A DNA stretch of 64,000 nucleotides from Selenomonas sp. (GTDB lineage: Bacteria > Bacillota > Negativicutes > Selenomonadales > Selenomonadaceae). The stretch lies in the NCBI GenBank assembly GCA_022773585.1, contig JALEZZ010000069.1, positions 1 to 64,000 on the forward strand, read 5' to 3'. Below, piece by piece: positions 8,689-59,946 of the stretch; within the stretch, counting starts at the first letter, position 1; every line of letters begins with the position of its first letter. The notes beneath the pieces are model-generated. The model saw nothing but the letters and a program-made list of their open reading frames with translations. It made no database searches and had not been told where the DNA came from. The translations under genes and the position numbers were made by a program.

Positions 8689-8701
8689 ACAAAAACAAGA
8701 C

Positions 8702-8729
8702 GGCGGGATTCTCCTTGAAAAATCCCGCC
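8702..8729 (+). terminator. Terminator after the broken chemoreceptor
   Basis: GGCGGGATT..AATCCCGCC stem. The -35 box of the next antisense RNA (TTGAAA, 8715-8720) lies in its loop. Confidence 0.55.
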
Positions 8730-8743
8730 ATCTATTGTAGAAT
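8715..8743 (+). promoter_or_regulatory. Promoter of antitoxin RNA 1
   Basis: TTGAAA (8715-8720), 17 bases, TAGAAT (8738-8743). Same hexamers and spacing as the promoter at 29593-29621 in the paralogous locus. Confidence 0.7.
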
Positions 8744-8749
8744 ACAAAG

Positions 8750-8855
8750 TAAGAAGCAGCCATGGTTGACGGTTGGCTTGCCTCGCCTAGAAGTTAATAG
8801 TTCTTACGAACAATAACCGCCTAAGTTTGGAAGACCTGGGGCGGTTATTGTTTTC
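8750..8855 (+). ncRNA. Candidate type I antitoxin RNA 1
   Basis: Runs from the promoter at 8715-8743 to a hairpin at 8812-8849 (AATAACCGCC / GGCGGTTATT) followed by GTTTTCT, about 105 nt. It overlaps the end of the toxin gene on the other strand. Its leader (AGCAGCC..GGTTGACGGTTGG..CCTCGCC) is nearly the same as the leader of the toxin mRNA, so the unit is bounded by inverted repeats. The motif CCTCGC is complementary to GCGAGG in the toxin ribosome site. Confidence 0.6.
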
Positions 8856-8910
8856 TCAGCACAACGATAATGCAGAGCATCAGGAAAAGAACGATGATCG
8901 TCTGTTCCAT
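8845..8910 (-). CDS. Small hydrophobic type I toxin candidate 1 (21 aa)
   Basis: The 21-codon frame begins MEQTIIVLFLM and ends VVLRKQ: one membrane helix with a basic tail, the usual look of type I toxins. GCGAGGTGG precedes the ATG. A paralogue at 29719-29784 differs at about five residues and keeps the whole surrounding layout. The mRNA would start near 8995 from TTGCGG-N18-TATACT (9002-9031) and meet the antitoxin RNA tail-to-tail. CCTCGC in its own leader could mask the ribosome site. Toxicity is inferred from architecture only. Confidence 0.6.
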   Translation of the reverse strand: MEQTIIVLFLMLCIIVVLRKQ

Positions 8911-9001
8911 CCGAACCACCTCGCTTTCCAGGTATTTCGACCTTTCTGCGAGGCGCAAAACAACCAACCGCCGACCGCTTGGTGGCTGCCTCATGTCATC
9001 T

Positions 9002-9031
9002 AGTATACAACAAGCCGCGTGCATCCCGCAA
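9002..9031 (-). promoter_or_regulatory. Promoter of toxin 1
   Basis: TTGCGG (9026-9031), 18 bases, TATACT (9002-9007). The -35 region sits inside an imperfect palindrome (AAGCCGCGTGC..GCACGCGGCTT, 9012-9047). In the paralogue this place holds a perfect 38-bp palindrome. Confidence 0.55.
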
Positions 9032-9104
9032 TAGGAGGCACGCGGCTTTTCCATACGAAATCTTGCAGAAGGGATGTTGTGTAGCTTTCTGCATATTCGT
9101 ATGA

Positions 9105-9152
9105 TATACTGAATGTGCCGTGTTACCTCTCTAGACAACGGAGGGAGGTGAG
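9105..9152 (+). promoter_or_regulatory. Promoter and leader of the Fst-like toxin
   Basis: Extended -10 TGATATACT (TATACT 9105-9110) with a poor -35. The leader folds ACCTCTC (9125-9131) against GGGAGGT (9143-9149), hiding the ribosome site, as is known for Fst-type toxin mRNAs. Confidence 0.5.
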
Positions 9153-9155
9153 GAC

Positions 9156-9257
9156 ATGGCAGACATCTTTTTCACATTGGTCGTAGGCATCGTGGCTGGC
9201 ATCATTGCCAACTTGCTGACCGACCGCATCCATCGCCGCTTCGGCAACGGCGAATAA
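9156..9257 (+). CDS. Fst/Ldr-like type I toxin candidate (33 aa)
   Basis: 33 residues: MADIFF, a glycine-rich hydrophobic helix (LVVGIVAGIIANLL) and a charged tail (TDRIHRRFGNGE). Length and layout match Fst-family toxins, which insert in the membrane. GGAGGTGAGG lies five bases before the ATG. Transcription ends at a two-way terminator (9304-9342). A convergent RNA starts near 9381 and carries a 15/16 complement of the toxin start region (repeat 9153-9168 against 9353-9368), the arrangement known from the par locus of pAD1. Homology to Fst is weak; the call rests on organisation. Confidence 0.6.
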   Translation: MADIFFTLVVGIVAGIIANLLTDRIHRRFGNGE

Positions 9258-9303
9258 CCCTCTGATGCGTACAATTGGCTAGGCTGGCCGACGATGGCGC
9301 ACA

Positions 9304-9342
9304 AAGAAGCCCCTCGCATAGGCTATTCGCGAGGGGCTTCTT
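9304..9342. terminator. Two-way terminator shared by toxin mRNA and antitoxin RNA
   Basis: GAAGCCCCTCGC / GCGAGGGGCTTC stem with T-rich ends on both strands (CTTCTTTCGG rightward, CTTCTTTGTG leftward). Confidence 0.75.
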
Positions 9343-9381
9343 TCGGTGTTCTGACATAGCAGACATCTAAATCTCTTTCAC
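9304..9381 (-). ncRNA. Candidate antitoxin RNA of the Fst-like locus
   Basis: Leftward promoter TTGAAA (9411-9416), 17 bases, TATACT (9388-9393), then about 78 nt to the shared terminator. There is no protein gene on this strand for the promoter to serve, since htrA ends at 9448 upstream of it. The RNA contains AGATGTCTGCTATGTC, complementary at 15 of 16 positions to the toxin mRNA across its ATG. Confidence 0.6.
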
Positions 9382-9447
9382 AACTTGAGTATACCACTGG
9401 ATGGCAATTTTTTCAATATCTCAGTTTTGTTCACGCATATACTTTCT

Positions 9448-29592: not shown

Positions 29593-29621
29593 TTGAAAAT
29601 TCCAGGCGTCTGATGTAAAAT
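29593..29621 (+). promoter_or_regulatory. Promoter of antitoxin RNA 2
   Basis: TTGAAA (29593-29598), 17 bases, TAAAAT (29616-29621). Confidence 0.7.
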
Positions 29622-29627
29622 ACGTAG

Positions 29628-29730
29628 TAAGAGAAGCAACCACCGGTTGACGGTTGGTCGCCTCGCGCAGTTGGTTATCTCATAGACATAACCGCCTTAG
29701 GTTGGTTCCCGGGGGCGGTTATTGTTTTCT
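29628..29730 (+). ncRNA. Candidate type I antitoxin RNA 2
   Basis: Runs to a hairpin at 29688-29722 (ATAACCGCC / GGCGGTTAT) followed by TGTTTTCT. Leader GAAGCAACCACCGGTTGACGG, TTGG, GCCTCGCGCAG closely matches the leader of the facing toxin mRNA (GAAGCAGCTACC..GGTCGGCGGTTGG..GCGCCTCGCAG). CCTCGC can pair with the toxin ribosome site GCGAGG. Confidence 0.6.
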
Positions 29731-29784
29731 CAACACAAATAAAATGCAGAGCATCAGGAAAAGGACGACAATCGTCTCTCCCAT
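29719..29784 (-). CDS. Small hydrophobic type I toxin candidate 2 (21 aa)
   Basis: Starts MGETIVVLFLM and ends LFVLRKQ; paralogue of the peptide at 8845-8910 with the same length and the same ending. GCGAGGTGA precedes the ATG. Its promoter is TTGCAA-N18-TATACT (29877-29906). The whole unit, about 250 bp, is a duplicate of 8750-9010. Conservation across both peptide and RNA parts argues for a functional locus, not chance. Confidence 0.62.
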   Translation of the reverse strand: MGETIVVLFLMLCILFVLRKQ

Positions 29785-29876
29785 CCGAATCACCTCGCTC
29801 TCAAGGTATTCCGACCTTTCTGCGAGGCGCAAAACTCCAACCGCCGACCGCTTGGTAGCTGCTTCTCATACAGATT

Positions 29877-29922
29877 AGTATACAACACCCCGCATACATC
29901 TTGCAAGATGTATGCGGGGTGT
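29877..29922 (-). promoter_or_regulatory. Promoter of toxin 2 with 38-bp palindrome
   Basis: TATACT (29877-29882), 18 bases, TTGCAA (29901-29906). A perfect 38-bp palindrome (29885-29922, halves ACACCCCGCATACATCTTG and its complement) covers the spacer and -35, so it could be an operator or a transcript-ending hairpin. Confidence 0.6.
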
Positions 29923-59822: not shown

Positions 59823-59831
59823 ATTAGTAGG

Positions 59832-59946
59832 AATCTTGCACGACTGACGGAAGTGGAGTTCACCACGGGGAGTGCAAGTGGCAGCGTTGCTGCAGGAGAG
59901 CCGACCGTCTGGGCAAGAGCCTTGGACTTTGTCGGCTCTTTTTTCG
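59832..59946 (+). promoter_or_regulatory. ZTP (pfl) riboswitch with terminator
   Basis: TTGCACGACTGACGG, AAGTGGAGTTCACCACGGGG, AGTGCAAGTG (stem with the first arm), and CCGACCGTCTGGGCAAG, matching the pfl consensus end CCGCCTGGGC. GAGCCGAC (59898-59905) can pair either within the aptamer pseudoknot or with GTCGGCTC (59931-59938) before a T-run, giving a typical on-switch: ZTP or ZMP binding prevents termination. Fits the AICAR-transformylase-like gene downstream. Confidence 0.85.

Follow-up and report, generated by a model that had tools for sequence, protein, structure and literature searches.

The 64,000-nucleotide stretch of Selenomonas sp. DNA analyzed here (contig JALEZZ010000069.1, positions 1 to 64,000; hereafter, the window) carries two copies of a compact unit, at positions 8715-9031 and 29593-29906, in which a short open reading frame (ORF) on the minus strand faces a predicted antisense RNA encoded on the plus strand. 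On balance, we read each unit from its sequence as a type I toxin-antitoxin locus with a par-like layout, and refer to the two putative transcripts as the toxin mRNA and the antisense RNA. The copies are 79% identical over query bases 1-317, by DNA comparison and in the alignment, and a third copy, 72% identical, is located on another contig of the source genome (G000:C65:5097-5350); the duplication proposed in an earlier reading of this DNA without database searches (hereafter, the sequence-only reading) thus stands. As that reading had it, the translated minus strand ORF comprises 21 codons and a stop in both copies (8845-8910, MEQTIIVLFLMLCIIVVLRKQ, in copy 1; 29719-29784, MGETIVVLFLMLCILFVLRKQ, in copy 2), and the predicted promoters converge with the same spacing. 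On the plus strand, these are TTGAAA-17-TAGAAT (8715-8743) and TTGAAA-17-TAAAAT (29593-29621), and on the minus strand, TTGCGG-18-TATACT (9031-9002) and TTGCAA-18-TATACT (29906-29877), for copies 1 and 2, respectively. Promoter scans reported both plus strand promoters, the first of which is also backed by the promoter scores of the family, and the minus strand promoter of copy 2; the minus strand promoter of copy 1, with three of six matches in the -35 hexamer, was under the scan threshold.

In copy 1, the predicted antisense RNA (8750-8858, plus strand), delineated with presumed start and end from the sequence, its fold and the family alignment, consists of a 5' hairpin, the hexamer CCTCGC (8781-8786), a linker and a terminator; its counterpart in copy 2, with presumed ends based on sequence and fold, covers 29628-29728, with CCTCGC at 29661-29666. 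The leader of the toxin mRNA of copy 1 (8911-8996, minus strand, with a presumed 5' end) is predicted from folds and pair counts to form a 5' hairpin and a stem-loop that masks the Shine-Dalgarno (SD) sequence. This leader includes its own CCTCGC (8953-8948; 29827-29822 in copy 2), and the ribosome site of the toxin gene is the complementary GCGAGG (8924-8919 and 29798-29793), which is predicted to be paired in both copies. A hairpin that would act as a bidirectional terminator for both RNAs was recognized by inverted-repeat scan in copy 1 (8809-8852, with perfect 13-base-pair arms at 8809-8821 and 8840-8852) and in the sequence of copy 2 (29688-29722, with arms at 29688-29696 and 29714-29722), and recurs in family comparison. 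The sequence-only reading had listed the common hairpin, the two CCTCGC hexamers and their complement, and all are present in each copy. The leaders of the two RNAs of a unit are alike because the DNA ends of the unit are partly inverted repeats; calling them near-identical, as that reading did, overstated the resemblance, given that the repeat extends over 34 nucleotides at 71% identity in copy 2 and over only 13 nucleotides at 85%, plus shorter pieces, in copy 1. Because these elements recur in homologues and the ORF appears to be under purifying selection, with a ratio of nonsynonymous to synonymous differences (pN/pS) of 0.42 (62 pairs, 22 distinct ORFs), we consider the observation on the two window units confirmed, at the sequence level, beyond chance. 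Rfam gave no match over the gathering score at the window units or at 14 loci compared; at E values up to 1, window positions 8690-9370 had two matches, both far under gathering.

By DNA comparison, a copy was found in five of seven genomes of the genus. A covariance model search, which the sequence-only reading had suggested, extended the family: the first model of the toxin leader had matches in 23 of 189 Selenomonadaceae genomes, and a model rebuilt from 36 matches reached 28 of the 189, in 11 of 30 genera, as well as 25 of 300 genomes of the class, where the weakest matches came from other families. At two weak matches of the rebuilt model (L067 and L068) there is no unit, and a third (L062) has a different peptide; none of these was used, although L062, at least, is counted among the 28 genomes. 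Those weak matches that are true units keep the leader core CGGTAGGCGGT or nearly so. A pattern built on this core retrieved at least 119 stretches from a species-level genome collection and nine from viral contigs; the matches listed from the genome collection include Ruminococcus flavefaciens, R. bromii, Butyricicoccus pullicaecorum, Anaerovorax odorimutans, Clostridium aminobutyricum, Centipeda and Lachnospiraceae, along with evident chance matches in Actinobacteria and others. Judging by these matches, the unit type is real and widespread, and reaches Clostridia.

For the counts below, the 80 loci listed of the at least 119 stretches, which hold 84 pattern matches, were reduced to 70 by excluding 14 with ORFs outside 20-46 codons; 37 of the 39 places found with the first model (all except the identical copies of window unit 2 in G004 and G006) and 8 weaker matches were added, giving 115 units. 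A regular expression detected the antisense hairpin in 97 of these; the 18 misses are partly a fault of the expression because several units, such as L061 and L063, show the hairpin by eye. Five of the 97 (L075, which may be genuine, L097, L122, L141 and L149) were set aside by hand, leaving 92 units, 86 of them distinct, and two of the latter (G157 and G180:C62) were excluded for lack of a match to the leader expression. The remaining 84 units, 32 from Selenomonadaceae and 52 from other groups, were used in permutation tests (5000 permutations) in which the antisense segment of each unit was compared with its own toxin leader or SD and with those from the rest of the set. Because counts of this kind are inflated by related units, the results within the two groups are safer.

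Across the units, the toxin leader follows a constant order, with a 5' hairpin (GCCACC or GCTACC ... CGGTAGGC), GGCGGT, an anti-SD stretch and the SD, and the antisense RNA consists of a hairpin (GCTACCGATAGACGGT), an anti-SD stretch, a linker and the terminator common with the toxin gene. In Selenomonadaceae, the anti-SD stretch is mostly CCTCGC paired with GCGAGG; in other genera, CCCC/GGGG (L061), CCTCA/TGAGG (L058) or CTCCC/GGGAG, for example, are found in the leader, SD and antisense RNA of one unit. The longest word that an antisense RNA has in common with the toxin leader is 6.39 nucleotides on average for the cognate leader vs 4.74 for permuted ones, a value attained in 0 of 5000 permutations for all 84 units and for the 52 other units, and in 1 of 5000 for Selenomonadaceae alone. 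The claim of the sequence-only reading that the antisense RNA is a copy of the toxin leader is thus borne out, and the relationship to the cognate leader is clear also within groups, as far as such comparisons can tell. Both RNAs are likely to be made because the predicted promoters on both sides score far above shuffled and distant sequences: at least 9 of 12 promoter positions match in 79 of 86 units on the antisense side (shuffled fraction, 0.10) and in 70 of 85 on the toxin side (8-10% of shuffles across both promoter types), compared with 5 of 81 and 5 of 83 control stretches located 300 nucleotides away.

In the window, the -35 of the toxin promoter, and in copy 1 that of the antisense promoter as well, lies within terminator-like inverted repeats (9012-9048, 29885-29922 and 8698-8733); the -35 of the toxin promoter falls in the loop region of the 9012-9048 repeat in copy 1 and is central in the perfect repeat 29885-29922, found by repeat scan, in copy 2. 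Inverted repeats with arms of at least eight nucleotides are present at the toxin-side promoter in 10 of 33 Selenomonadaceae units vs 2 of 32 control stretches. As a general feature of the units, these repeats were rejected: outside Selenomonadaceae, they occur in 3 of 52 units vs 3 of 51 controls.

The fold predictions support the proposal of the sequence-only reading that the toxin leader masks its own ribosome site. The predicted unpaired probability of the SD is 0.07 vs a mean of 0.37 for the whole mRNA, and is below 0.2 in 70 of the 84 units. The interaction energy of the leader anti-SD with the SD is -13.71 kcal/mol for cognate pairs vs -11.35 for permuted ones, with 0 of 5000 permutations as good across all units or in the non-Selenomonadaceae group and 9 of 5000 in Selenomonadaceae. 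When the masking structure was evaluated on 34 distinct leaders, in an alignment that was fitted to the tested structure and in which the SD stem itself varies little, 86.6% of the cells were paired vs 83.0% in shuffled alignments, and 22 cells had changed on both sides vs 7.4. Some results weigh against this interpretation. In the minimum fold of the copy 2 leader alone, the SD pairs with a nearer ACCU rather than with CCTCGC, so that the CCTCGC-GCGAGG stem of this copy appears in the full-length fold only, and for the four folds in the window, the advantage over shuffles is no more than modest (z-scores of -1.5 to -2.1). In addition, column-wise covariation in the antisense hairpin was not above shuffles in the 53 of 86 units compared, perhaps because the lower stem shifts between units.

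The peptides themselves are 20-22 residues long in Selenomonadaceae, with one of 27 residues in Mitsuokella, and mostly 21-34 residues elsewhere, with a hydrophobic stretch and, in many cases, a lysine-rich tail. The window peptides match no Pfam or NCBIfam family and are thus under the cut-off of the Pfam family Hol_Tox (PF16935). This lack of a family assignment, together with the presence of copy 2 at the same chromosomal place in two relatives (G004 and G006), would fit a non-toxic role, in which the ORF encodes a small membrane protein and an antisense RNA of this layout adjusts its translation. We consider such a non-toxin function unlikely because the same RNA frame elsewhere carries a Hol_Tox peptide: the peptide of L082, a relative with this frame, scores 24.1 bits against the PF16935 cut-off of 23.3, with L110 at 13.5 bits and no match for most other relatives tried. 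The absence of the unit from orthologous places in relatives also fits a dispensable module. PF16935 also matches a 38-residue ORF of phage SPBc2, which we take to be BsrG.

We examined loci of the Hol_Tox family, obtained by protein search, comparing the region before the toxin start with the region behind the stop. One part of this set comprises nine loci, four of them over the PF16935 cut-off, in 4 of 10 genomes that were all picked for carrying a pattern match; the other part comprises 24 loci from a sample of 196 genomes (17 with a match) from the class of one of these genomes. In 21 of the 33 loci, no more than 5 of 500 shuffles reached the inverted repeat score of the leaders (15 of 24 in the class sample and 6 of 9 in the first part; these 6 include L209 and L210, which are the same as the L082 pattern units, and L204, whose best alignment lies outside the antisense leader). 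The mean score was 27.5 for cognate vs 18.7 for permuted regions (0/5000). Many of the 24 class-sample loci have different leader letters (AAGGTAATCGG...GGTTGCCAC) in the same arrangement. L204 and L208, a pair of Hol_Tox-like loci from a single genome, show by eye GCTCCCC and GCTTCCC, respectively, in both leaders. The SPBc2 locus has a weak leader repeat, whose score was reached by 1 of 500 shuffles for one stretch compared and by 8 of 500 for another. In L203 and L205, the CGGTAGGCGGT core is missing and, by eye, each of the two transcripts carries a variant pair, GGATTACCG...GGCGGTT; the score test (23/500 and 70/500) did not single them out. The units are therefore best seen as joined to the Hol_Tox/TxpA-BsrG toxins by predicted layout and not by the sequence of the window peptides.

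Whether the antisense RNA also acts at the ribosome site, in trans, as the sequence-only reading proposed, is less clear-cut. The antisense segment pairs with the cognate SD at -11.61 kcal/mol vs -10.29 for permuted partners, a difference attained in 0 of 5000 permutations over all 84 units and in 28 of 5000 for the 52 non-Selenomonadaceae units. Watson-Crick runs between the antisense RNA and the SD region are at least six nucleotides long in 20 of the 32 Selenomonadaceae units and at least five in 26, with two of the 20 (G009:C5 and G153:C1:342130) located beside the SD core and not across it. Within this family, the two sequences change together: the SD of G183:C22 is GTGAGG with CCTCAC in the antisense RNA, and both G181 units combine GCGGG with CCCGC (in G181:C67, a five-nucleotide run). 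In the Hol_Tox set, of which 28 of the 33 loci were used (L222, L224, L225 and L226 were excluded beforehand, and L208 lacks a start codon), the antisense leader part pairs with the SD better than letter-shuffled sequence (-9.03 vs -7.84).

Several observations count against pairing at the ribosome site. Within Selenomonadaceae, cognate pairing is not above permutation by energy (334/5000) or run length (738/5000), nor is it in the 28 Hol_Tox loci (985/5000), so part of the signal over all units may reflect shared ancestry. In the 52 other units, runs of at least six nucleotides occur in 7 and of at least five in 18, and run length barely exceeds that of shuffled letters (6.10 vs 5.81). The antisense stretch is not specially open, with an unpaired probability of 0.45 vs 0.40 and values above 0.5 in 30 of 84 units. 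The sequence-only reading had staked its case on homologues keeping the exact match, which is lost in 12 of the 32 Selenomonadaceae units; among these, G181:C67 has co-changed, and G150 and G152, like G153:C1:342569, keep GCGAGG with a mismatched antisense stretch. In the within-group tests, antisense pairing with the SD is therefore borderline, and pairing in trans at this site appears to be well supported only where the match is exact, that is, in the 20 Selenomonadaceae units with long runs.

The failure of SD pairing to exceed permutation within Selenomonadaceae and in the Hol_Tox set is in line with the main rival explanation, namely, that antisense control is confined to the 3' overlap, comprising the terminator and the downstream region, and produces a target for RNase III. 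The shared leader would then serve as a common 5' hairpin that confers stability, or as the site bound by a single protein, with the anti-SD match arising as a by-product of leader copying. In the parts of the literature consulted, RatA and SR5 are reported to work by 3' pairing and degradation (PMC6562991, PMC3531473), and in the present units, the terminator overlap is complete by construction. Furthermore, over all units and in the non-Selenomonadaceae group, the antisense 5' hairpin forms a better fold when combined with the flank of its own unit than when flanks are swapped (0/5000 in both), although not in Selenomonadaceae (1840/5000). What speaks against an exclusive role of the 3' overlap is the joint change of antisense stretch and SD within a single family, the pairing signal over all units, and the exact matches of 6-9 nucleotides in Selenomonadaceae. 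We consider this explanation less than probable, albeit a serious contender.

Under the type I, par-like interpretation, the minus strand toxin mRNA would encode a 21-residue membrane peptide, and CCTCGC in its leader would fold onto its own GCGAGG, so that free toxin mRNA would hardly be translated. The plus strand antisense RNA would open with an abridged version of this leader, in the order 5' hairpin, anti-SD stretch and linker, and end in the common terminator. The first contact would probably be made by the terminator loops, which are fully complementary; in a second contact, the antisense copy of the anti-SD would probably hold the ribosome site, replacing or backing up the toxin's own leader. 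If true, such a three-way constraint among leader, ribosome site and antisense RNA would make cognate specificity among the copies of one genome directly testable.

The terminator might have an additional role. Its 5' arm on the toxin side contains CCGCC in 78 of 86 units, and the matching 3' arm has GGCGG in only 31 of these 78. Such one-arm conservation is not expected of a hairpin alone, which makes the GGCGG of the toxin leader (8968-8972, minus strand, in copy 1) the obvious candidate partner of CCGCC past the stop codon; we infer that a closure between the 5' and 3' ends of the toxin mRNA might form in this way. The leader core belonged to the pattern that selected most of the non-Selenomonadaceae units, and the four full-length folds predict a plain terminator, not this pairing.

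The layout has clear counterparts among known systems. In par_pAD1, the promoters converge, both transcripts end at a common terminator, and the locus has direct repeats as well as a stem-loop masking the SD (PMC7472228); through these repeats, the antisense RNA is able to cover the start of toxin translation (PMC7472228, PMC8167048, PMC4147584). The window units resemble par_pAD1/Fst, with its RNA I and RNA II, in the convergent transcripts, the bidirectional terminator and the SD stem-loop in cis, which are predictions in our case. The sequence-only reading had set the units apart from par-type loci on the grounds that the latter use direct repeats. This contrast falls because, on the plus strand, CCTCGC of the antisense leader (8781-8786) recurs in direct orientation as the complement of the ribosome site (8919-8924); this direct repeat, reduced to about six nucleotides and weak outside Selenomonadaceae, stands alongside the masking stem-loop, convergent promoters and shared terminator, all of which are par features. 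What the units add is the inverted repeat of the leaders, through which the antisense leader repeats that of the toxin mRNA, a feature not described for par in the accounts consulted. The window peptides also lack the Fst/Ldr signature (a Trp between the membrane helix and the charged tail, PxxxG); hence, the units are par-like in their predicted working and are not filed as Fst.

TxpA/RatA and BsrG/SR4 of Bacillus subtilis, as described in the text available to us, likewise consist of small membrane peptides and convergent RNAs overlapping at the 3' end, with a ribosome site that four or five G-C pairs keep closed (PMC6562991). Our units share these features, the convergent RNAs being predicted, and PF16935 loci often have the leader inverted repeat; the differences are the 21-residue window peptides without a PF16935 match and the reported action of RatA and SR5 at the 3' overlap, with no leader copy mentioned in that text (PMC6562991). 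The hok/sok system is similar in that the toxin mRNA masks its own start, and perhaps in 5'-3' pairing, if GGCGG indeed pairs with CCGCC here, and differs in that the antisense RNA of our units converges at the 3' end and nothing in them points to processing of the mRNA. For Clostridia, a 2019 review, seen in part, lists experimentally validated type I systems in C. difficile only, with toxins of 34-59 residues, and predicted TxpA-like and Fst-like sequences in other species (PMC6563280). The titles and abstract beginnings returned by searches of the open full-text literature, which largely leaves subscription papers outside, describe neither this unit family nor an antitoxin made as a copy of its toxin's leader. 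Judging from sequence and the sources covered, the units are best regarded as a novel form of convergent type I locus, with a leader-copying antisense RNA.

A broader scenario, which we put forward tentatively and would not call probable, combines these strands. The antitoxin would be a leader mimic, evolved as a detached copy of the self-inhibiting toxin leader and taking the place of that leader on the ribosome site; this would be the ancestral Hol_Tox/TxpA-BsrG design in Negativicutes and Clostridia, cut down to 21-residue toxins in Selenomonadaceae, with a trace in bsrG/SR4 and with GGCGG-CCGCC as a second, 5'-3' lock. If true, a family of toxins encountered repeatedly in anaerobes of the gut and mouth would have a defined RNA architecture by which it can be found in sequence, and a testable mode of control could be assigned to genes commonly annotated as "putative holin-like toxin". 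It would also reveal a simple path by which a type I antitoxin can evolve, namely, duplication of the toxin's inhibitory leader in inverted orientation.

The occurrence of several copies per genome invites yet another explanation, that the inverted ends are terminal repeats of a small non-autonomous mobile element, with the RNA features being secondary. When relatives were compared over window positions 8694-9004 and 29593-29906, the place of copy 1 was empty in three (G004, G005 and G006) and that of copy 2 in one (G005). However, no target-site duplication is apparent by eye at the empty sites, and the inverted repeat covers approximately the first 45 nucleotides of both predicted transcripts, not the outer ends, and has variable letters in common with the cognate leader. 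At the empty sites, the neighboring hairpin overlapping the toxin promoter is retained; gain and loss of the unit are therefore equally likely. Altogether, a mobile element seems very improbable. Searches of plasmid and phage collections by DNA or with Hol_Tox peptides yielded no match, which says little because short hydrophobic queries may fall to the low-complexity filter. Tandem duplications of the unit were noticed in single genomes, at L008 (two copies, 344 nucleotides apart), L025 (two) and L082 (two), with peptides that differ slightly to clearly, and some units are damaged: L060 has an early stop in the peptide frame, and the antisense side behind the ORF of L064 is unrecognizable.

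Copy 1 is adjoined by a second type I-like locus (window positions 9105-9416), with a plus strand ORF (9156-9257, MADIFFTLVVGIVAGIIANLLTDRIHRRFGNGE) that had no Pfam or NCBIfam match over the cut-off, a hairpin (9303-9343) and a convergent minus strand promoter, TTGAAA-17-TATACT (9416-9388). A 16-nucleotide direct repeat (15/16 identical) at 9153-9168, across the start codon, and 9353-9368 gives this neighbor the classical par arrangement; it is matched in G006, and not in G004 or G005. Farther away in the window, positions 59830-59921 match the ZMP/ZTP riboswitch over the Rfam gathering score.
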